A stretch of DNA of 60,750 nt from Lachnospiraceae bacterium. Its GTDB lineage: Bacteria; Bacillota; Clostridia; Lachnospirales; Lachnospiraceae. The position numbers were made by a program, and so were the translations under genes. Positions 1,380 through 60,750 of the stretch are shown here, one piece after another (position 1 is the stretch's first letter; every line of letters begins with the position of its first letter). The stretch spans positions 1-60,750 of the forward strand of contig JAILKH010000196.1 in NCBI GenBank assembly GCA_024693925.1, in the 5' to 3' direction. Under the pieces are notes generated by a model that saw nothing but the letters and a program-made list of their open reading frames with translations, had not been told where the DNA came from and did not search any database.

Positions 1380-2576
1380 TCACCATTTTACCTGCCATCT
1401 TTGCAGGAGTTCTTCGACAGATTCAGGTTCTTTTACGGATGTAATCCTGTTCTTATATACATCTGAAATTTTTTCACTGATGCGTGATTTTTCAAGGTAT
1501 TGTTCAAAAACCTCTTCATTAACGGGAATGTCACTCCAGTCATCCGTCCATGACGAGATATATGCCGCATTGGATATATACAGGGAATTAAGTCCCTCCT
1601 CTCCGCGGGCAATAAGGGGTGTTCCGTCAAGAATCGCATCCGCAAAATTATTAAGTATTATAGGATGACCGTCGGGTTCAGGTGAGCTGAAAAGTTCATA
1701 TTCCGTTTCGGGCTCCCAAAAACCGGATTTACAGGTGAAGCAGAGTTCCCTCTCGGGAATCTTCAGTTTGGTCCATTTTAATATCCCGCCTTCAAGAACA
1801 AGTTTACCCTTGTCCGCAGATATCTCGAGCCTGTTCGTACCGGGAGTCTCTCCGGTGCTTGTAATAAAAGTAGCGGTAGCACCGTTATCGTATTCACCGA
1901 ATATGGTAACGTCATCTTCAACACCTATCCTGTGATATTTTCCGATCGAGCAGAAAGCCTTTAATCTTTTGGGCATTCCGAATATCCACTGCCACAGATC
2001 AAGGTTATGCGGAGCCTGGTTCAGAAGAACACCCCCGCCTTCACCGTTCCAGGTACCGCGCCAGATTCCGGAATCATAATAAGCCTGAGTCCTGTACCAA
2101 TTGGTAATGATCCAGGTAAGACGTTTTGGTTCACCCAGTTCCCCGCTTTTTATTATGTCCCGGGCTTTTACAAAAAGGGGATTGGTCCGTTGATTGAACA
2201 TAATTGCAAAGATACTTCCGGAGCTTATGGCAGCATCGTTCATTTCTCGAACCTGACGAGTATAAACACCGGCAGGTTTCTCCGTAAGTACATGAAGCCC
2301 GCGTTTGAAGCATTCTTTTGCAATATCGGGATGTTTATAATGAGGAGTTGCTATGAGCACGGCGTCTATAAGCCCACTGTCAAGCATCATATGGGTATCT
2401 TCGTAGGTCTTTATATTGGGACAGAGTTTTGCAGCTCTTTTAAGTTTGTTTATATCGGGATCGGATACGGCAGTTACTCTTATCCTATTACATTGTCCTT
2501 TGACAATATAGGTAAGATGTCCGTATCCCATGTTGCCGACACCGGCTATTCCAAGTCTTATATGATCCATATGCAT
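1380..2576 (-). CDS. Gfo/Idh/MocA family NAD(P)-dependent sugar oxidoreductase (paralog 1)
   Basis: 398 residues. The N-terminal Rossmann fold begins with GIAGVGNMGYGH, and the family signature TEKPAG holds the catalytic lysine. The C-terminal substrate domain contains GEGGGVLLNQAPHNLDLWQW, whose His and Asp resemble the active-site residues of inositol dehydrogenase-like enzymes. The protein is strikingly similar along its whole length to the one encoded at 3488-4642, so the two are tandem paralogs. The isomerase-like gene at 2630-3445 lies between them, suggesting one minus-strand operon for oxidation of a sugar, polyol or sugar acid. The substrate cannot be told from sequence. Confidence 0.9.
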   Translation of the reverse strand: MHMDHIRLGIAGVGNMGYGHLTYIVKGQCNRIRVTAVSDPDINKLKRAAKLCPNIKTYEDTHMMLDSGLIDAVLIATPHYKHPDIAKECFKRGLHVLTEKPAGVYTRQVREMNDAAISSGSIFAIMFNQRTNPLFVKARDIIKSGELGEPKRLTWIITNWYRTQAYYDSGIWRGTWNGEGGGVLLNQAPHNLDLWQWIFGMPKRLKAFCSIGKYHRIGVEDDVTIFGEYDNGATATFITSTGETPGTNRLEISADKGKLVLEGGILKWTKLKIPERELCFTCKSGFWEPETEYELFSSPEPDGHPIILNNFADAILDGTPLIARGEEGLNSLYISNAAYISSWTDDWSDIPVNEEVFEQYLEKSRISEKISDVYKNRITSVKEPESVEELLQRWQVKW

Positions 2577-2629
2577 TATTTAGGAGCTGCTCATTACTAA
2601 TGAACAGCTCCGTTCTCCTTAAATCAGAT

Positions 2630-3445
2630 TTATTTATATATGATTTCCTTAAGTGCATCCGCAGCGGCTTTGAATGCCGTTTCGGAATCGGGGTATTCAT
2701 ATATCCCGACTTTACTTTTTTCCTTGCCTTCAAGTGCATTCAATCCGTCGAATACGGCAAGGTGGGGCTCTATCGTAAGCACATGTCCCTTATATTGAGA
2801 AAGCAGATATTTAAGTTGTCCCACCCCTTTTCCGGCAGGAACTACGGAACCGTCCGGCAGGGCATCTTTAATATGCATATATTCTACATAGGGTGAGAGC
2901 ATTTCCCAGGCTTCCTTTGTGTCCTGACCCGACTGAACGAAGTTAGCCGGATCGAAAATGGCTCTGATCTGAGGGAAAGTCTCATGTATCTTAAGACATC
3001 TTGAAGCAATATCTCCGTATATTCCCTTTTCATTCTCATGACAGAGAACCACATCGCTTCCTTTTGCCGCTTCTATGAACATATCAAGCCTGTCTGCAAC
3101 CTCATCGAAACGATCCTGCGATTCATAGAAACTGAAAAGACGTATATGTTTTGTATTTAGTTCAAAACATATATCAATACTTCGTTTGAATTTTTCAAGT
3201 TGGTCTTTAAAATCATCTGTTACGTTTATCTTACCGTAGGGTGACCCTATAGACCATACTGAAAGGCCTTCATCTTCAAGCCTTTTTCTTACTTCTTTTG
3301 CTTCTTTTTTAGTTATTTCCGCAATGTTTTTTCCGTCGAAATTACGGATCTCAAGCATAGGTATCCCATTATCCTTAAGTGCTTTTATCTGTCCGGTTAA
3401 AGCCGGTGAAGCTTCATCCGCAAATGCTGCCAGTTTGAATTCCAT
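2630..3445 (-). CDS. Sugar phosphate isomerase/epimerase-like TIM barrel protein
   Basis: 271 residues when started at the ATG at 3445, which has a clear GGAGGT (complement of 3451-3456) six bases upstream; a longer frame to 3472 lacks such a site. The pattern FDPANFVQSG, HEN and HIKDA followed by GKG is that of xylose-isomerase-like TIM barrels that bind a metal with Glu, Asp and His residues. It sits between two Gfo/Idh/MocA oxidoreductase genes, a pairing known from inositol and other polyol pathways where the barrel enzyme isomerises or dehydrates the oxidised sugar. Exact reaction unknown. Confidence 0.85.
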   Translation of the reverse strand: MEFKLAAFADEASPALTGQIKALKDNGIPMLEIRNFDGKNIAEITKKEAKEVRKRLEDEGLSVWSIGSPYGKINVTDDFKDQLEKFKRSIDICFELNTKHIRLFSFYESQDRFDEVADRLDMFIEAAKGSDVVLCHENEKGIYGDIASRCLKIHETFPQIRAIFDPANFVQSGQDTKEAWEMLSPYVEYMHIKDALPDGSVVPAGKGVGQLKYLLSQYKGHVLTIEPHLAVFDGLNALEGKEKSKVGIYEYPDSETAFKAAADALKEIIYK

Positions 3446-3487
3446 TGTAGACCTCCTGTGATTTTTGAGCATATGTTATCCGGTATT

Positions 3488-4642
3488 CTAATAAGTTCCC
3501 GTTGTGTCGAAAACAATACCGCTTCCGGTCTTTTTCTTTGAAGTTTTTCTTCGTTTATTCAGTTCCTCAAGGAAAAGATCCTCATCGAAGGGTATCTCTA
3601 TCGTTTTGTCAAGCCAGGATGAAAGATACATGGCATTTGATAAAGTCAATCCTCTTATACCTTCGGTTCCCTCCGCAACAAGCTTTCCCCCGTGGAGGAT
3701 CCTGTCCGCAAAGGCTCTGAGGACACCGTCATGTTGTTCGTTTTTTCCGTCAGTCTCTATTTCTATCCTTGTCATATCGGGCTTTTTGAAACCTTCGGGC
3801 TCGGTTTTGCAGAAAGTACGCTCATTAACGCAGAGCTTATCAAAAAACAGATTATGTTCTTCGCAGATGATACGTCCCATTTCAAAGGTAAGCTCCAGAC
3901 GGTTGGTTCCCGGTGCATCTCCGGTAGTGGTTACGAATACACCGGTTGCTCCGTTTTCATATTCAAGGTACGCAGTTACATCATCTTCGACTTCAATATC
4001 ATGCCATTTACCGACATGACAGAAAGCCCTTACCTTAGTAGGCATTCCGCATAACCATTGAAGCAGATCAAGCTGGTGAGGGCACTGGTTTAAAAGTACA
4101 CCGCCGCCTTCACCGTCCCAGGTTGCTTTCCAATCGGCAGCATCGTAATAGGATTGAGTCCTGTACCAATCGGTGATTATCCAGTTTACCCGCTTAAGCT
4201 TCCCGAGTTCGTTGCTGTTGATCATTTCATGTAGTTTTCGGTATACGCAATTGGTGCGCTGGTTAAGCATAAGCGCAAATACTTTATCGCTCTTATTTGC
4301 GATTTCGTTCATTTCCCGAACCTGACGGGTATATACACCCGCAGGCTTTTCACTTAATGCATGCACATCGTGTTCCAGGGCATAGATCACAAATTCCGGA
4401 TGAAGATAATGGGGAGTTGAGATCAATACCGCATCACAAATGCCGGAATCTATCAGAGCATATCCGTCATCAAAATTTATTATGTCCTTTGGCAGATTGT
4501 TTTTGGCCCATTCAAGTCTTTGCGGTCTTATATCCGCAACAGCTGTCAGTTTTATTTCCGGTATGTTTCCGTTAACAATGCTTTTTGCATGTGTGGAGCC
4601 CATGCCGCCTATTCCTATGATCCCGAGTTTTAATTGATCCAT
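3488..4642 (-). CDS. Gfo/Idh/MocA family NAD(P)-dependent sugar oxidoreductase (paralog 2)
   Basis: 384 residues with GIIGIGGMGSTH as dinucleotide-binding loop, SEKPAG with the catalytic lysine, and GEGGGVLLNQCPHQLDLLQW in the substrate domain. It shares many long blocks with the product of 1380-2576 (YTRQVREMN, NQRTN, WYRTQ.YYD, VEDDVT, G.APGTNRLE), so the pair came from duplication and may act on related substrates or as two steps. The ATG at 4642 has GGAGAAAA upstream. It is first in the minus-strand block running away from the AraC gene. The tail is rich in Lys and Arg. Confidence 0.9.
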   Translation of the reverse strand: MDQLKLGIIGIGGMGSTHAKSIVNGNIPEIKLTAVADIRPQRLEWAKNNLPKDIINFDDGYALIDSGICDAVLISTPHYLHPEFVIYALEHDVHALSEKPAGVYTRQVREMNEIANKSDKVFALMLNQRTNCVYRKLHEMINSNELGKLKRVNWIITDWYRTQSYYDAADWKATWDGEGGGVLLNQCPHQLDLLQWLCGMPTKVRAFCHVGKWHDIEVEDDVTAYLEYENGATGVFVTTTGDAPGTNRLELTFEMGRIICEEHNLFFDKLCVNERTFCKTEPEGFKKPDMTRIEIETDGKNEQHDGVLRAFADRILHGGKLVAEGTEGIRGLTLSNAMYLSSWLDKTIEIPFDEDLFLEELNKRRKTSKKKTGSGIVFDTTGTY

Positions 4643-4821
4643 GGTTTTTTCTCCTTTGGCCTAAAGATTCCGAATCAGTTTGAGCATGCTCATATCCGAG
4701 CATACTTACAATTTGATCATGTTTTGTTTTCTTGATTATATTGTATAGGCATTCTAAAAAAAATACACATATACAACCATATTTATGCAATAATCCGACC
4801 TCTGCCGGATTAAACAGGCTT

Positions 4822-5670
4822 TTACAGTTTGAAATAGTGACTCGGAGATACGCCGGTAAATTTCTGGAAAGTCTTAAAAAAGTAAGCATAACTGGAAAAA
4901 CCCAGTTCCTCCTGGACCTGTGAAACGGAAAGTCCGTTACGCAAAAGCGATTCCGCTTCGCTTATCCTTTGTGTGGAAATGTAACGGCTTATTGGAATAT
5001 GCATGTGCTTTTTAAAGAGTCTGGAAAGATAATCGGGATTCAGGTAAAAGTATGATGCTATATCTGTTACCGTGATCCTGTCCCTGATGTGCTCGTGAAT
5101 ATAGGCAAGTATCTCGTTCACCTTCTTTTGAGAATCCGAGATAGGCAGGTTGTATTCGGCTTCGGATTCAAAACTTTTAATTATACGGCTAAAAAAAGAA
5201 AGAAATCTGAAAAATGAACTTAATGAATCGGGGGTCAGTTTATCTTCGTATTTCAGAAGTTTTTCAAAATGACTTATGAGTTCGGTTTTATCCTCTCCTT
5301 TGGGAAAGAAAAATAAAGGAGAAGGTTCTTCAAGACGTGAAAATACTGTAGGAATATCACAAAAGACCGATTTAAGCCAATTTGTATGTATAGACAATAT
5401 ATAACGCTCATATACCACCCGGTTTTCATGATAAAGCTGATGGATGCAAAAGGTCGGAATAATGATAAGTGTTCCGGCCGGAATCATGGAAATGGAATCA
5501 TTTAAAAGAACATCCGGAAGATCGGTCAATGTATAGTAAAGTTCCGTGGCATTATGAGAATGAGGTTCTGCCGGATTCGGGGACAGTTCATTTCTGTACA
5601 CCATTTCATAAGGCGGGGATACCGAAAACAAGGGGGCTTTAGTTGAATCATTGGATACTGTTTTTTTCAT
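4822..5670 (-). CDS. AraC family transcriptional regulator
   Basis: 282 residues. The N-terminal half is a cupin-like sensing domain (EPHSHNATELYYTL, then IIPTFCIHQLYHEN). The C-terminal 100 residues hold two helix-turn-helix units: ITVTDIASYFYLNPDYLSRL and VSQVQEELGFSSYAYFFKTF, followed by the hallmark GVSPSHY. It is transcribed on the minus strand, divergent from the ABC importer starting at 5914 and upstream of the oxidoreductase block, so it very probably senses the imported sugar and controls one or both. The 243-base gap between 5671 and 5913 is AT-rich; I could not fix a promoter in it. Confidence 0.92.
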   Translation of the reverse strand: MKKTVSNDSTKAPLFSVSPPYEMVYRNELSPNPAEPHSHNATELYYTLTDLPDVLLNDSISMIPAGTLIIIPTFCIHQLYHENRVVYERYILSIHTNWLKSVFCDIPTVFSRLEEPSPLFFFPKGEDKTELISHFEKLLKYEDKLTPDSLSSFFRFLSFFSRIIKSFESEAEYNLPISDSQKKVNEILAYIHEHIRDRITVTDIASYFYLNPDYLSRLFKKHMHIPISRYISTQRISEAESLLRNGLSVSQVQEELGFSSYAYFFKTFQKFTGVSPSHYFKL

Positions 5671-55483: not shown

Positions 55484-57088
55484 ATGGCTAAGAATGATCA
55501 GAACAACGAACAGCAGCAGGATATAGGACAGCTTCTTAAGGTAAGAAGAGAAAAGCTTGCTTCTCTTCAGGAAGCAGGAAAGGATCCTTTTATCATTACA
55601 AAATATGACCAGACGCATCATTCCACAGATGCCAAGGCTTTGTATGAAGAGCTGGAATCAAAGCTTCTTGCGGGAAGAGAAGAGGTTAATACCGACGGAA
55701 TGGAAGAAGCTGAGGCCAGAGCAGCGAAAAAGGCTGATTATGAAGAACGCAGGGAGATAATGGATGCACAGCCTATTAATGTATCCATAGCCGGCCGCCT
55801 TATGAGCAAACGTGTAATGGGTAAGGCTTCATTTTCAAATGTTCAGGATAAACCCGGAAATATCCAGGTATATGTAGCCAGGGATGCTATCGGTGAGGAA
55901 TCTTACGCAGAATACAAGAAATATGATGTAGGTGATATTGTAGGCGTAAAAGGTTATGTATTCAGGACTATGATGGGTGAGATATCAATCCATGCGGAAT
56001 CGGTGGTGCTTCTGTCAAAGTCATTGCAGATCCTTCCCGAGAAATATCATGGACTTACAAATACTGATTTAAGGTATCGTCAAAGATATGTTGACCTTAT
56101 TATGAATCAGGATGTTAAAGAGACTTTTGTTAAGAGATCTAAGATTATTTCTTCGATCAGGAAATATCTTGACGAACAGGGCTTTATGGAGGTTGAAACC
56201 CCCATGCTTGTATCAAATGCCGGAGGTGCGGCGGCAAGGCCTTTTGAGACGCATTTCAATGCGCTTGATGAGGATCTTAGACTTCGTATATCACTTGAGC
56301 TTTATCTTAAGAGACTTATCGTCGGAGGACTTGAGAGGGTATACGAGATAGGTCGTGTATTCAGGAACGAGGGACTTGATACAAGACACAATCCCGAGTT
56401 CACACTTATGGAGTTGTATCAGGCTTATACTGATTACAACGGTATGATGGATCTGACTGAAAATATGTTCAGGCATGTTGCAAAGGAAGTGCTTGGAACA
56501 ACTAAGTTTAATTACGGAGATATTGAGCTTGATTTTGGCAAGCCTTTTGAACGAATTACCATGATAGATGCGGTTAAGAAGTATGCGGGAGTTGATTTTG
56601 ACCAGGTACCCGATACGGAAGCTGCAAAGAAACTGGCGGATGAGAGGGATATTCACTACGAGCCTTACCACAAAAAGGGCGATATAATCAATCTCTTCTT
56701 CGAGGAGTATGTGGAGGAGCATCTTGTTCAGCCTACTTTTGTAATGGATCATCCGGTGGAGATTTCTCCGCTTACCAAGCGTAAACCGGACAGACCGGAC
56801 CTTGTTGAGAGATTTGAGCTGTTTATCAATACCTGGGAGATGTGTAATGCTTATTCCGAGCTTAACGATCCCATCGATCAGAGAGAACGTTTTAAAGCTC
56901 AGGATGCTGCTGCGGCAGCAGGCGATGAGGAAGCAAACCACACAGATGAGGACTTCCTTAATGCGCTTGAGATCGGAATGCCCCCTACGGGAGGTATCGG
57001 ATACGGTATAGACAGATTAACGATGCTGTTAACGGATAGTCCAAGTATAAGGGAGGTTTTATTCTTTCCAACGCTCAAGTCGCTCTAA
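55484..57088 (+). CDS. lysS: Lysyl-tRNA synthetase (class II), 3' end is the integration target
   Basis: 534 residues. An OB-fold anticodon domain, then class II motif 2 (RVFRNEGLDTRHNPEFTLMELYQAY) and motif 3 (GIGYGIDRLTMLLTDSPS) with the ATP-binding residues, ending FFPTLKSL. The last 90 bases recur, diverged but in frame, at 60530-60619, so the gene appears to have had its tail exchanged by insertion of the recombinase element. The family often ends with a text like TDSPSIRDVLLFPTMK, so the protein is complete. The active site part in motif 3 is intact. Confidence 0.96.
   Translation: MAKNDQNNEQQQDIGQLLKVRREKLASLQEAGKDPFIITKYDQTHHSTDAKALYEELESKLLAGREEVNTDGMEEAEARAAKKADYEERREIMDAQPINVSIAGRLMSKRVMGKASFSNVQDKPGNIQVYVARDAIGEESYAEYKKYDVGDIVGVKGYVFRTMMGEISIHAESVVLLSKSLQILPEKYHGLTNTDLRYRQRYVDLIMNQDVKETFVKRSKIISSIRKYLDEQGFMEVETPMLVSNAGGAAARPFETHFNALDEDLRLRISLELYLKRLIVGGLERVYEIGRVFRNEGLDTRHNPEFTLMELYQAYTDYNGMMDLTENMFRHVAKEVLGTTKFNYGDIELDFGKPFERITMIDAVKKYAGVDFDQVPDTEAAKKLADERDIHYEPYHKKGDIINLFFEEYVEEHLVQPTFVMDHPVEISPLTKRKPDRPDLVERFELFINTWEMCNAYSELNDPIDQRERFKAQDAAAAAGDEEANHTDEDFLNALEIGMPPTGGIGYGIDRLTMLLTDSPSIREVLFFPTLKSL
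56999..57088 (+). repeat. lysS tail, left copy (candidate attL)
   Basis: The 30 codons of the lysS 3' end from GGATAC to the stop. Against the right copy at 60530-60619, I count 58 of 90 identical bases and 22 of 29 identical residues, with equal length and no gaps. The longest perfect run is ACGGATAGT at 57032-57040. Confidence 0.8.
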
Positions 57089-57144
57089 GCCGCATAAATA
57101 CTGGATTTTTGACACCTATAATATTATAAATATTGACAACAATG

Positions 57145-57176
57145 ATACCATCCTGTTTATGCGGGGTGGTATTTTT
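57145..57176 (+). terminator. Terminator after lysS with an overlapping alternative stem
   Basis: ATACCATCC (57145-57153) pairs with GGGTGGTAT (57164-57172, one G-T pair), then a T run to 57176. The loop contains TTTATGCGG (57156-57164), perfectly complementary to CCGCATAAA at 57090-57098 right after the lysS stop, so a competing long-range stem is possible. Confidence 0.8.
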
Positions 57177-57193
57177 AATTTATTTTAAGTATT

Positions 57194-57222
57194 TTGGAAA
57201 TTTGCACTAAATGCAAATAATA
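57194..57222 (+). promoter_or_regulatory. Candidate promoter with embedded palindrome before the XRE gene
   Basis: TTGGAA (57194-57199), 17-base spacer, AATAAT (57217-57222). The spacer is filled by a 17-base inverted repeat TTTGCACTAAATGCAAA (57201-57217), a natural operator position for the XRE protein encoded 18 bases downstream. Transcription would begin near 57229, giving a very short leader. Confidence 0.5.
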
Positions 57223-57239
57223 ATTGATATTATATATGT

Positions 57240-58130
57240 ATGGCTGCGTATTTACCAAATAGTATCAGATACTATCGAAAACAAAACAAACTGAATCAGG
57301 AACAATTGGCACAGAAGCTGGATGTGAGTATCGGACAGCTTTCCAGATATGAAAGCGGGGAAAGTGTACTGTCATCGGATAAACTTCTTAAGCTTACTTC
57401 AATTTTTAATGTATCTGCCGAAGAGCTTTTGAAGAGAGATACGTTCAGGGAGGTAAATGATGAAGGCCTTCCCGTAATTGATATAAGTGAAGGCGAGGTA
57501 TGTAGAAGACAGCTGTTTTCAAGAGTAAATGATACTGCCTTGACTATTTATCCGGATGGTATAAGATTTTCAACTTCATGTGTCAGACAATGGCCGGAAA
57601 CAGAGTTTATACATATTGTGATCTTAAAGGAAGAAAAGTTATTGATCGTCCGGGCTAGAGAGGATGAAGACAGAGATGCGCAAAGATGGTCACGAATGAA
57701 GGATGATAGAAAATTCGGAAGAAAAATCGGCGGCAGAGAAGTTGTGATCAGACTATTTGATATGATGGGCTGGGCTAAAGGATTTACATACAAGATAAGC
57801 GGATATGTCGGAGTTAATAAGGATGATCCCACAGAGAAGATGTGGTATTTCGAATTATGCGATGCGGAAGGTTATCCTATGTCGCATAAAGCCAGAGAGA
57901 AGGCTGGAATAAATGATGATGAAATTGATAAGGATAATCTTGATTATCTTGATAATGTAGAGCTTCTTAAAGCAAAAGAGATTGAGAGACGTAAAAATAT
58001 CAAAGCCGAGGGTAAACCTCTCGGACCGATGAATCATTATGTCATATATCCGGATAAATGGGGGCAATATACTTTCGGATTACCCAGTCAGGATCATGAA
58101 ATAATACCATTGATCGGTTTCAAGACATAA
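57240..58130 (+). CDS. XRE-type regulator with a C-terminal domain shared with the recombinase
   Basis: 296 residues. Residues 5-63 are an HTH_3/XRE domain (SIRYYRKQNKLNQEQLAQKL and the recognition helix VSIGQLSRYESGES). Residues about 91-207 match a segment of the recombinase encoded next: ALTIYPDGIRFSTSC, followed by a strand pair, an Arg-rich turn, FDMMGW, YKISGYV and a final WYFEL. The last 90 residues are charged and end IPLIGFKT. No Shine-Dalgarno signal precedes the ATG, so the message may be leaderless or nearly so. It probably represses its own promoter and that of the recombinase, which lies 12 bases beyond in the same transcript. Confidence 0.88.
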   Translation: MAAYLPNSIRYYRKQNKLNQEQLAQKLDVSIGQLSRYESGESVLSSDKLLKLTSIFNVSAEELLKRDTFREVNDEGLPVIDISEGEVCRRQLFSRVNDTALTIYPDGIRFSTSCVRQWPETEFIHIVILKEEKLLIVRAREDEDRDAQRWSRMKDDRKFGRKIGGREVVIRLFDMMGWAKGFTYKISGYVGVNKDDPTEKMWYFELCDAEGYPMSHKAREKAGINDDEIDKDNLDYLDNVELLKAKEIERRKNIKAEGKPLGPMNHYVIYPDKWGQYTFGLPSQDHEIIPLIGFKT

Positions 58131-58142
58131 AGGATCAGAAAG

Positions 58143-60488
58143 ATGAGCAGTGGATATAACTCAAAAGAAGATATCAGGGAAATGCACAGAAAAGGTGCTG
58201 ATCTGAGTAAGATAAGCATAATTCCGTCCAAAGCCGGAAAGAAAAATCCCGGTTATGAAGAAGAACGACGAGTGGCAATATATTGCAGGGTATCTACCGA
58301 TGGCATATCTCAGACCCAATCATTTGAGACACAGAAAAGCTTTTATATAAATTATGTAAGAAATCATCCAGGTTGGAATCTTATAGGATTATATTCTGAT
58401 GAAGGATTATCCGCAACCAGCATGAAAAGCAGAAAAGGTCTTCAGATGATGTTACGGGACGCGCGGGCGGGTAAAATAGATCTGATAATCACCAAAAGTG
58501 TGTCCAGATTTAGCAGAAATGCAGATGATTTCAGGCAAATGGTAAAAGAACTCAAAAATCTGCCACGCCCTGTGGAGGTCTTTTTTGAAACAGAAAGATC
58601 CAGCACATTCGATCCGGCAATGGAACTTGTTATAACTATCCTCGCTATTTTTGCCGAGCAGGAAAGCATAAAAAAATCCGAAGCAATAACATCTGCCATA
58701 AGAATGCGATTTAAAAATGGTTTTTTTCTTGTTCCTGCATCATTGGGGTATAAACGTACAGGTGTCAATCGTATAGAAATAGATGAAGAAGAAGCCGAAA
58801 CCATAAAACTGATATATGATATGTATCTTGCAGGATATGCAGCATGTGAAATCTCAGAGATACTTATAAAACTGGGAAGAAGAAAGCATACACACATATA
58901 TACAGACGGACGGATCAAAGAAGGAGGTACCGACTGGACACCTTCGTATATAATGGAAATCCTTGAAAATGAAAAGAAATGTGGGGATGTGAGGGCGCAG
59001 AAAACGTATACTGTAGACTGCATGGAACATATTACAAGAAAAAACAACCTGGATGTCGATCAGTATTATGCGTTGGATCAGCATCCGGCAATTGTTTCGA
59101 GAGAAGATTTCTATCTGGCGCTTAAATTGAAAAAAAGCAATCGCGGAGGATGGAATAACGGCATACAGTTTCTTAAAACCTATTTGAACGGTGAGCTTAA
59201 AGGAAGTGTTTTGACTATTCCAAGATGGCATGGTTTTACAACAAGTGACTATATAAGAGCTTCACTGGTAGGTTATGGGATAGAGTTATCTGAAAATGAG
59301 ATCTATCCATATTATGTTTTAAATGCTATGAAATCGGTATGTAACAATGAGGATATCGATCAGCCCTCAGAGTATGACACTGAGGATAATGAGGCTGATC
59401 ACTTCTATGAAGTGTCGGAAGAAGAATTCTTAACTGCACCGTTGTATGTTGAAGAATCTGCTGAGGAAAATGATTCAGAAGATGACGAGCCGGAATACAG
59501 ACATCTGTTTGAGAAAATAAAGGATAAGATCGTAAAATCGGAAGCCGTAGAAGAAATGAGATACATGCCTGTAAGTGGAAGGCTTTTTAATATTAATCAG
59601 AAACCGTTGGTTACGATTGACAAATGCGGGCTGAAATTTAATAAAGCCTGCTATAAGACACTGCTTCATGACAGATTGAAAGGCGAAAGAATAGAGGTAT
59701 TGTATAATCCGATCAAAAATGTGATGCACATGAGGACAGCAGATGAAGGATCAACAGATGCGCATACACTGAAATGGATAAAAGCAGGAGCAGAGCATAT
59801 AAAAATGGTACGGTGCCCGGCAGAATCGCTGACGGCAGCAATATTTGACTGTGCAGAATGGGATACTGAAAAGAAATATAAAGCTCTCGGGTTTATGTGT
59901 GAGATAGAATCGGTAAGATACATGGTATTTGATCTGTCAGATCCAATAATATGTGTAATTACAAGCGGTCAGACAATGAAGAATGACAGATCAGGTCAAA
60001 CACAGGAGATAGATATTGACGTTGAAATTATGCCGGAAATAGAGAAAGGTGACAGTGAGATCCCGGAACAGGGTATTGAAGAGGAATATACAACCGGAAA
60101 AGTGGAAAACAAAAGCAGGGCAGTTTATTTCGAACAGAATAGAGCGATAAAAGAACATATTTCTATCAAAGATCATATCCGTGAAATGTATGACCCGAGG
60201 TTTATTAAGGAATTAAAAGAAAGAAATATCACTCCGGATGAAGGATGGGATTATTTACGCGGGATAATAAAATGGACTAATAATGGATTTCAGATCATGT
60301 CATCAGATTGGAAAGACAGATTTTCCGAGAAAACAGGTCAGGAATGTTTTTACGGGAATAATGAAGATACAGAAATAAAAGAAACGGTTACCGGCTGGAC
60401 GACTAACTATAGTTTTCCGTCCCGTAAAGAAATAGAAGAAAAGATACGCACGATGAGCAGGATGAAAGAAGCTTATGAAAATACTTAA
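58143..60488 (+). CDS. Large serine recombinase with an unusual C-terminal half
   Basis: 781 residues. The resolvase/invertase catalytic domain starts at about residue 40, with the nucleophile Ser51 in YCRVSTDGIS and the arginines in SVSRFSRN (residues 119-126). The alpha-E helix and the Recombinase domain follow (about 195-335, with LGYKRTG, NEKKCGDV and HPAIVSREDF). The usual four-cysteine zinc ribbon is not seen. An acidic linker (400-455) leads to a domain at about 478-605 that matches residues 91-207 of the XRE protein, then a 175-residue charged tail. It would insert or excise the element at the lysS 3' end. AAGGATC precedes the ATG. Confidence 0.92.
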   Translation: MSSGYNSKEDIREMHRKGADLSKISIIPSKAGKKNPGYEEERRVAIYCRVSTDGISQTQSFETQKSFYINYVRNHPGWNLIGLYSDEGLSATSMKSRKGLQMMLRDARAGKIDLIITKSVSRFSRNADDFRQMVKELKNLPRPVEVFFETERSSTFDPAMELVITILAIFAEQESIKKSEAITSAIRMRFKNGFFLVPASLGYKRTGVNRIEIDEEEAETIKLIYDMYLAGYAACEISEILIKLGRRKHTHIYTDGRIKEGGTDWTPSYIMEILENEKKCGDVRAQKTYTVDCMEHITRKNNLDVDQYYALDQHPAIVSREDFYLALKLKKSNRGGWNNGIQFLKTYLNGELKGSVLTIPRWHGFTTSDYIRASLVGYGIELSENEIYPYYVLNAMKSVCNNEDIDQPSEYDTEDNEADHFYEVSEEEFLTAPLYVEESAEENDSEDDEPEYRHLFEKIKDKIVKSEAVEEMRYMPVSGRLFNINQKPLVTIDKCGLKFNKACYKTLLHDRLKGERIEVLYNPIKNVMHMRTADEGSTDAHTLKWIKAGAEHIKMVRCPAESLTAAIFDCAEWDTEKKYKALGFMCEIESVRYMVFDLSDPIICVITSGQTMKNDRSGQTQEIDIDVEIMPEIEKGDSEIPEQGIEEEYTTGKVENKSRAVYFEQNRAIKEHISIKDHIREMYDPRFIKELKERNITPDEGWDYLRGIIKWTNNGFQIMSSDWKDRFSEKTGQECFYGNNEDTEIKETVTGWTTNYSFPSRKEIEEKIRTMSRMKEAYENT

Positions 60489-60502
60489 TCTTCTTTTGTA
60501 AA

Positions 60503-60619
60503 ATGAAATTACTTTTAAGAGGATTAACAGGATATGGAATTGACAGGCTTATAGGTATTTCGACGGATAGTTTGTCAATTAGGGATGTGTTGTTGTTCCC
60601 GACGTTAAAATCGCTATAA
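60503..60619 (+). pseudogene. Displaced lysS 3' fragment, open as a 38-codon frame
   Basis: An in-frame ATG at 60503 opens a frame of 38 codons that ends MKLLLRGLTGYGIDRLIG... and TLKSL, covering the right lysS tail copy. There is no Shine-Dalgarno signal, so translation is unlikely. Residues corresponding to motif 3 of LysRS remain partly recognisable (GYGIDRL). It is the fragment displaced or carried by the element. Confidence 0.6.
60530..60619 (+). repeat. lysS tail, right copy (candidate attR)
   Basis: The 90 bases correspond column by column with 56999-57088, ending in the same TCGCTNTAA. Most mismatches fall in third codon positions except for a short block of four codons (IGIS against TMLL) and one at the turn (L against P). 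The perfect match ACGGATAGT is at 60563-60571. Confidence 0.8.
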
Positions 60620-60712: not shown

Positions 60713-60750
60713 GTCACAAAGTGGACGCTCACGGAAGTTCATGTAAAAAT

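Follow-up and report, generated by a model that had tools for sequence, protein, structure and literature searches.

The 3′ end of the lysyl-tRNA synthetase gene, lysS, in this Lachnospiraceae genome appears to carry a composite array, in which a serine-recombinase cassette occupies the tail of the gene and a tyrosine-integrase element is nested behind it. This is the best explanation we can offer for the locus, and we hold it at roughly even odds. The window, i.e., the whole 60,750-nt stretch of DNA that was analysed, is an entire contig (G000:C117) that ends at position 60750, from an assembly of 3.05 Mb in 201 contigs. On its forward strand, lysS (55484..57088) is an intact open reading frame encoding a lysyl-tRNA synthetase of 534 aa (PF00152, E 8.1e-98; PF01336), and its functional 3′ end, tail A (56999..57088), encodes GYGIDRLTMLLTDSPSIREVLFFPTLKSL followed by the stop codon. 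A degenerate second lysS 3′ end, tail B, is found at 60521..60619 on the same strand, where 60530-60619 encodes GYGIDRLIGISTDSLSIRDVLLFPTLKSL and a stop. An earlier note on this DNA correctly located the two tails at 56999-57088 and 60530-60619, with their common length of 90 nt, frame, and stop codon, but its statement that the last 90 bases of lysS recur was too strong, given that 58 of the 90 bases (64%) and 22 of the 29 residues are identical. At 58 matching bases of 90, an exact repeat or a recent duplication is ruled out. Over 33 codons the tails differ by 41 mismatches, distributed 8/9/24 over codon positions 1/2/3, and the predominance of the third position indicates that tail B was derived from a coding copy. 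In addition, a search of the whole genome with the lysS protein matched tail B at E 9.8e-6, far beyond chance. Tail B is an old, worn copy of the lysS end.

The two tails are of different residue types. Tail A has the type IREVLFF, which is that of the lysS clade containing the window. In a tree of 783 nt of the lysS body, constructed without G013 and G012 because their anchor motifs are absent, the window falls inside the IREVLFF clade with a support of 0.83-0.85; an earlier 480-nt tree had placed it elsewhere with a support of 0.59. A foreign 36-nt segment in tail A, for which the 480-nt comparison and tree were positive, was rejected when the 783-nt tree removed its basis. Tail B has the type IRDVLLF in the window and in G017, and some of its codons are common to all three B tails, which are those of the window, G017, and locus L121. 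Because tail A is of the clade type while tail B is of another, the left part of tail B probably arrived with the cassette, and the right part was probably replaced by the neighbouring element, which together would put the crossover near 57065-57073. Tail B ceases to resemble lysS at motif 3 (about 56975-57000), and the cassette may have been inserted there, but we do not favour this option given that tail B and the window's clade have different residue types. Among the points that count against the best explanation are the native clade type of tail A, the lysS likeness of tail B, which extends about 70 bases to the left of the core sequence described below and for which a simple single crossover gives no account, and the core itself, which is that of tyrosine integrases.

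In PMC8301612 and PMC10765050, vanD islands residing in lysS are described as flanked by 13-bp repeats, TTCCC[g/a/c]AC[a/g]ATGA. The corresponding sequence of tail A, TTTCCAACGCTCA (57065..57077, forward strand), has one mismatch to the published core in its first eight positions, whereas that of tail B, TTCCCGACGTTAA (60596..60608, forward strand), agrees with it in its first eight bases; expressed as the lysS core TTCCC[g/a/c]AC near the stop codon, tail B fits with TTCCCGAC and tail A, with TTTCCAAC, has one mismatch. The core therefore reads TTTCCAACG in tail A versus TTCCCGACG in tail B, and the published lysS repeats likewise differ by one base (PMC8301612). The stretch 57065..57077 is the probable left crossover zone, and 60596..60608 is probably the crossover zone of the neighbouring element as well as that of the cassette. 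The neighbouring element, Y, starts at 60605 and is cut by the contig end at 60750 (forward strand), 131 bases past the stop codon of tail B. It is homologous to the stretch that follows a partial lysS tail in G009:C55 (score 56 versus a maximum of 29 in 500 shuffles) and only weakly similar, a point against the best explanation, to the stretch behind lysS in G006 (28 versus a shuffle maximum of 26), where the shuffles, like those used for the left end of the cassette below, preserve base composition only. From these 131 bases, we infer that Y would be the end of a lysS-specific tyrosine-integrase element, for which tail B probably serves as a substitute attachment site.

The use of a second tail in this manner can be compared among relatives. 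Searches of 37 genomes of the genus with the tail-B peptide gave second tails in two, the window's genome and G017 (where the lysS protein also matches the second tail, at E 2.3e-6), a count to which contig breaks may conceal further additions, and another one was found within the L121 locus (E 1.9e-6), so that second, degenerate tails exist in three assemblies. In G017, lysS is followed by a probable antitoxin gene, a zeta toxin gene (PF06414), and the degenerate tail, and the window's recombinase has no match in that genome. In L121, lysS is followed by the recombinase, a small gene, a zeta toxin gene, and the degenerate tail. From the stop codon of tail B onward, G017 and L121 are identical at 110 of 110 bases. 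Left of the core, their B tails agree at 25/48 and 23/33 bases, followed by 18/18 from the core on, and divergence is also seen between their zeta genes (pS 0.80). One identical element end is joined at the core in both. G034 has 102 of 112 bases of this element end directly behind lysS itself, and the similarity between the element end behind tail B of G017 and L121 and that behind lysS of G034 suggests that tail B works as a substitute site. The simplest account of these alignments would be a single type of element that integrates at the core, be it that of lysS or that of tail B. Zeta-toxin-like genes (PF06414) are seen behind lysS in three genomes (L077:1239-1820, L078:1045-1503, and L121:10556-11137).

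The same comparison bears on the crossover proposed in the earlier note, which had been placed at 57040/57041 within ACGGATAGT, by eye the longest identical run of both tails. A chimeric tail of the kind that the note had predicted, with a left part like tail A and a right part like tail B, does exist in G003 and G027, but the switch in these relatives occurs near 57065, and the proposed position was probably about 25 bases too early. We interpret the lysS sites of G003 and G027 as occupied rather than empty; their contigs end 117-118 bases farther on. The note had also held that relatives with both lysS tails but lacking the recombinase would refute its reading, and G017, which has no match to the recombinase, carries both tails around a different gene pair, the probable antitoxin and zeta toxin genes.

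Between the two tails of the window lie the genes of an XRE-type regulator and a large serine recombinase, 12 bases apart, which would probably constitute one operon. The left end of the cassette (57091..57180, forward strand) includes a terminator-like hairpin at 57144-57173, found by terminator scan, whose RNA fold is weakly unusual (z −1.5). This stretch is homologous to the one after lysS in G026 (local score 107 versus a maximum of 58 in 300 shuffles) but not common to G017 (28 versus a shuffle maximum of 46), and its match in L121 (52 versus 50) consists of the palindrome region. In G026, whose assembly is 82% complete, the recombinase was not matched, yet this left end is present. Taken together with the tails of G017, it indicates that the ends of the cassette are independent of the recombinase. 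This, like the failure of G017 to share the left end and its restriction to the palindrome region in L121, counts against the best explanation. Upstream of the XRE gene, the imperfect palindrome ATTTGCACTAAATGCAAAT (57200..57218, forward strand) comprises 19 bases that are identical in L121, where the XRE gene is mostly lost while the palindrome is kept. It forms the one such site in the window, where shuffled sequences average 0.09 matches at up to three mismatches, and is probably the operator of the regulator.

The XRE-type regulator itself (57240..58130, forward strand; 296 aa; HTH_3, E 2.1e-14) shares homology over residues 80-280 with the C-terminal portions of related serine recombinases and with the gene adjoining them (BLASTP against the L114 recombinase, E 1.6e-18); residues 451-605 of the recombinase in the window have a weaker match to this C-terminal region (E 1.3e-7). 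The shared domain corresponds to 57453-58127 in the XRE gene and 59493-59957 in the recombinase gene, and it also occurs as a separate gene adjoining recombinase relatives of 40-45% identity (L113-L118). Neither Pfam nor NCBIfam gave a match over it in the proteins tested. The C-terminal homology to recombinases hints at a working link between the regulator and the recombinase.

The recombinase gene (58143..60488, forward strand) encodes an intact protein of 781 aa with PF00239 at residues 44-193 and PF07508 at residues 215-331, i.e., the Resolvase and Recombinase domains within one long intact frame that define a large serine recombinase. No Pfam domain beyond these two was found at E 0.001, and the zinc ribbon PF13408 was not found; such a domain is frequent but not universal in large serine recombinases and is present in some of the integrases described in PMC4701971. 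The protein matches the integrase family phrog_95 (E 1.4e-78), its best match in the PDB is 3g13, a putative conjugative-transposon recombinase, and among NCBIfam models CcrB scores best with 84.5 bits (cut-off 900), followed by CcrC with 59.5 (900) and CcrA with 42.9 (700). Its homologue in L121 is 57% identical over residues 11-777 and also lies directly behind lysS, which puts both members found of the full-length type, 2/2, at this site; L121 was the one relative found by a contig scan whose reach is limited to close relatives. With pN 0.27 and pS 0.76 between the two genes, where synonymous sites are saturated, the recombinase is, judging from the substitutions, under purifying selection. 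Among 37 genomes of the genus, a set to which L121 does not belong, the full-length recombinase was found in the window's genome alone, and nothing else above 45% identity was among the matches listed in searches of 145 and 397 genomes. The former left 28 genomes without a match and unlisted, and G035 can only be among them; in the 397 family genomes, the C-terminal region as query gave two weak matches besides itself.

Relatives of 40-45% identity over the first 375 residues or so, each within a gene set of its own, occur in genomes of Lachnospiraceae and other members of the order as well as in temperate phages. Beside these relatives, a set consisting of the domain protein, a small protein, a gene of unknown family, and DUF6551 is conserved (L114:4862-9672). 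No relative of the recombinase was found in viral contigs, no plasmid or phage record covered 80% of it, PADLOC gave no match for it, and no attachment site of three distant relatives was recognised within 120 kb in three genomes, the last of which counts against the best explanation. Integrase genes usually lie beside their own attachment sites; the distance from the end of the recombinase gene to tail B is about 30 bases.

In the explanation that we prefer, a cassette of the XRE and recombinase genes would have entered the tail of lysS close to the core TTCC[C]NAC, such that lysS stayed open and kept a full 3′ end (tail A) and the worn lysS-like tail B came to lie at the far end of the cassette. 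Tail B retains the core of lysS-specific tyrosine-integrase elements, the end of one of which (Y) would adjoin it, and the presence of both the core and Y suggests that elements arriving later can use the spare tail as a docking site. The cassette was probably inserted by the serine recombinase, and XRE would repress the operon from the palindrome at 57200. The recombinase is the sole candidate inside the cassette and is tied to the lysS site, which makes its role as the inserter likely, but this is unproven because G017 has both tails without such a recombinase. Insertion by site-specific recombination at the lysS tail with lysS kept open, the exact crossover, a present mobility of the cassette, and the operator function of the XRE site are all read from sequence and would follow from the same scheme. 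The proposals of the earlier note that the lysS 3′ end is the target and that incoming DNA restores the frame are supported, and the full-length recombinase type is tied to this site in both members found. Its "minimal mobile unit" survives in part: only two genes do lie between the tails, but they are not the whole insertion since the contig ends shortly past tail B, and we regard the locus as a nested array rather than a lone two-gene unit because tail B bears a tyrosine-integrase core and is probably the docking site of a second element.

A second explanation, somewhat less probable than the preferred one but a serious competitor, is that the cassette is cargo bounded by tyrosine-integrase sites, either cis-mobilizable or decayed, which was inserted and can be moved in trans by a lysS tyrosine integrase, while the serine recombinase is a passenger or acts on another substrate. 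The tyrosine-integrase core of tail B, nearly matched in tail A, would be expected from such cargo, as would the use of tail B by the neighbour and the finding that G017 and G026 hold other genes at the same position without a serine recombinase. The layout of G320:C52, in which the end of a tyrosine integrase gene stands beside a lysS tail of 30 codons with repeated motifs to its left and right, also fits it. No tyrosine integrase, however, lies between the tails, and the sole recombinase that does is intact and conserved, with lysS as the only place where it was found. The unequal cores, TTTCCAACG and TTCCCGACG, speak against it too, though with the one-base variation of published lysS repeats in mind.

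Far less probable is an old insertion inherited vertically in the genus, by which the regulator and recombinase would be an immobile resident pair and tail B a fossil. Between the window and L121, the nucleotide identity of the recombinase genes (70.8%, 1082 nt) is not far below that of lysS (76.7%, 1291 nt), and tail B carries non-synonymous changes and, in L121, two stop codons, as a fossil would. This is difficult to reconcile with the patchy presence of the full-length type, confined to the window's own genome among the 37 of the genus, with a recombinase frame that is intact and under selection, and with the other genes that G017 and G026 have in that place. An assembly artefact or an unrelated partial lysS duplication, which the 201 contigs of the assembly and the closeness of tail B to a contig end might bring to mind, is very improbable, as a like arrangement in the independent assemblies of G017 and L121 contradicts an artefact and the divergence of tails A and B is too great for a repeat-collapse error.

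The preferred reading, a composite array, can also be considered against the lysS 3′ ends of the genus and the family. The lysS protein was matched in all 37 genus genomes, in several of them apparently through other synthetases only. In 32 stretches around lysS 3′ ends or related matches, the tail pattern recognised 22 lysS tails; three of the remaining loci (L105, L106, and L108) are interpreted as other-synthetase-like matches, and seven had none. A contig end lies within 230 bases of the match in 11 of the 22 tails. Contig breaks caused by a downstream rRNA operon were considered and rejected on the basis of zero Rfam matches in nine of the 32 loci; element ends fit the breaks better, though many contigs simply end. 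The sequences after the stop codon vary widely among relatives and often hold short motifs in repeated copies, reminiscent of integrase arm sites, and the genus seems to have an integration hot spot at its lysS 3′ ends. About 14 kb past lysS, G025 carries a tyrosine integrase whose N-terminal domain is of the Tn916 type, and a partial lysS tail comes after it.

Of 397 family genomes searched, 60 were rescanned, namely those with at least three listed matches (the window's own excepted) and G266, a selection that would miss a second tail in genomes with two matches only; ten stretches from six of them were inspected, and the extra matches in G178 and G152 were left out. Further extra lysS ends were seen in G342, G076, G226, and G320, a short-frame lysS end in G266, and a degenerate one in G366. 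Those of G076, G226, and G266 begin at contig ends and could reflect strain mixture. In L137 (G342:C28, oriented 1444-5638), a full lysS is followed by an AAA_14/DUF4143 gene and a second lysS end of 260 codons, a far longer duplicated end whose identity, taken per 100 bases, is 83-97% across about 800 bases. In L140 (G320:C52), positions 1-700 hold the tyrosine integrase end, similar to the G025 integrase at E 1.5e-22, and the 30 codons of the adjacent lysS tail are well preserved, with repeated motifs on both sides, a layout reminiscent of an attP, or of a tandem junction, of a lysS element. The lysS frame of G009 (L079:4751-5407) continues past the usual stop into a tRNA_bind-like region (PF01588), for which the tested piece scored 24.7 bits against a cut-off of 27; lysS-tail frames of 640-728 aa are present in many family genomes. 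The lysS match of G006 (G006:C114:32658-34265) contains one in-frame TAG.

Several known systems share features with the lysS array. In the tandem accretion of ICE families and in CIMEs, att-flanked stretches stand in line behind one gene, and CIMEs are devoid of recombination genes. The lysS array would likewise consist of att-flanked stretches behind one gene, but the cassette holds an intact recombinase of another family and so differs from a CIME. Insertion of SCC and ECC keeps the frame of rlmH. According to PMC6222049, the CcrAB large serine recombinases of these elements act at the 3′ region of rlmH, which shows that 3′-end serine recombinases are known and qualifies the earlier note's statement that serine integrases usually split a gene. 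Like the cassette, SCCmec and ECC combine a large serine recombinase with the 3′ end of a conserved gene as the target and variable cargo, and have imperfect direct repeats, of about 50 bp in ECC against about 90 in the lysS cassette (PMC6222049). They differ in their target, rlmH instead of lysS, in their recombinase, CcrA, CcrB, or CcrC, from which that of the cassette is so distant that it stays below all three cut-offs, and in having a second ccr gene where the cassette has the XRE gene. The TATCATAA motif of SCC/ECC repeats is absent from tails A and B, although repeats as such are present. By analogy, the cassette would work as SCC/ECC does at rlmH, yet it is not a member of that group.

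Tyrosine-integrase elements at lysS have been described in the form of three streptococcal elements (PMC4701971) and of the vanD islands of Enterococcus, for which an origin in Blautia/Clostridiales was proposed (PMC8301612, PMC10765050). These ICEs and islands share with the cassette the same place in lysS, the core TTCCC[g/a/c]AC (complete in tail B, with one mismatch in tail A), and imperfect end repeats (same three sources). The 3.4-kb cassette differs from them in having neither a tyrosine integrase nor transfer genes, and whereas the repeats reported at lysS are 13-17 bp, the lysS likeness at its far end reaches well beyond that. The single serine integrases of streptococcal ICEs at rumA, as described in PMC4701971, resemble the cassette in an integrase located beside the site and in the exchange of the 3′ part of a housekeeping gene, but there the integrase gene itself contains one of the repeats and the exchange alters the reading frames of both proteins, unlike the cassette, which keeps the lysS frame and whose recombinase gene ends before the repeat. 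In the literature covered, available in part and lying mostly outside subscription journals, no serine recombinase element at lysS was found.

It is also conceivable, at about the same low probability as vertical inheritance, that tail B has been selected as a decoy that draws tyrosine-integrase elements off lysS and that XRE gates excision by contacting the recombinase. If so, newcomers would stack behind the cassette, away from the essential gene, which would explain how elements accumulate behind lysS without harm. Under the preferred reading, the lysS locus joins two known habits, that of serine-recombinase cassettes at gene 3′ ends and that of tyrosine-integrase elements targeting lysS, and it provides a recombinase that is compact and has a possible natural site in lysS. 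It also suggests that the end of a gene, once displaced or carried along, can turn into an attachment site in its own right.
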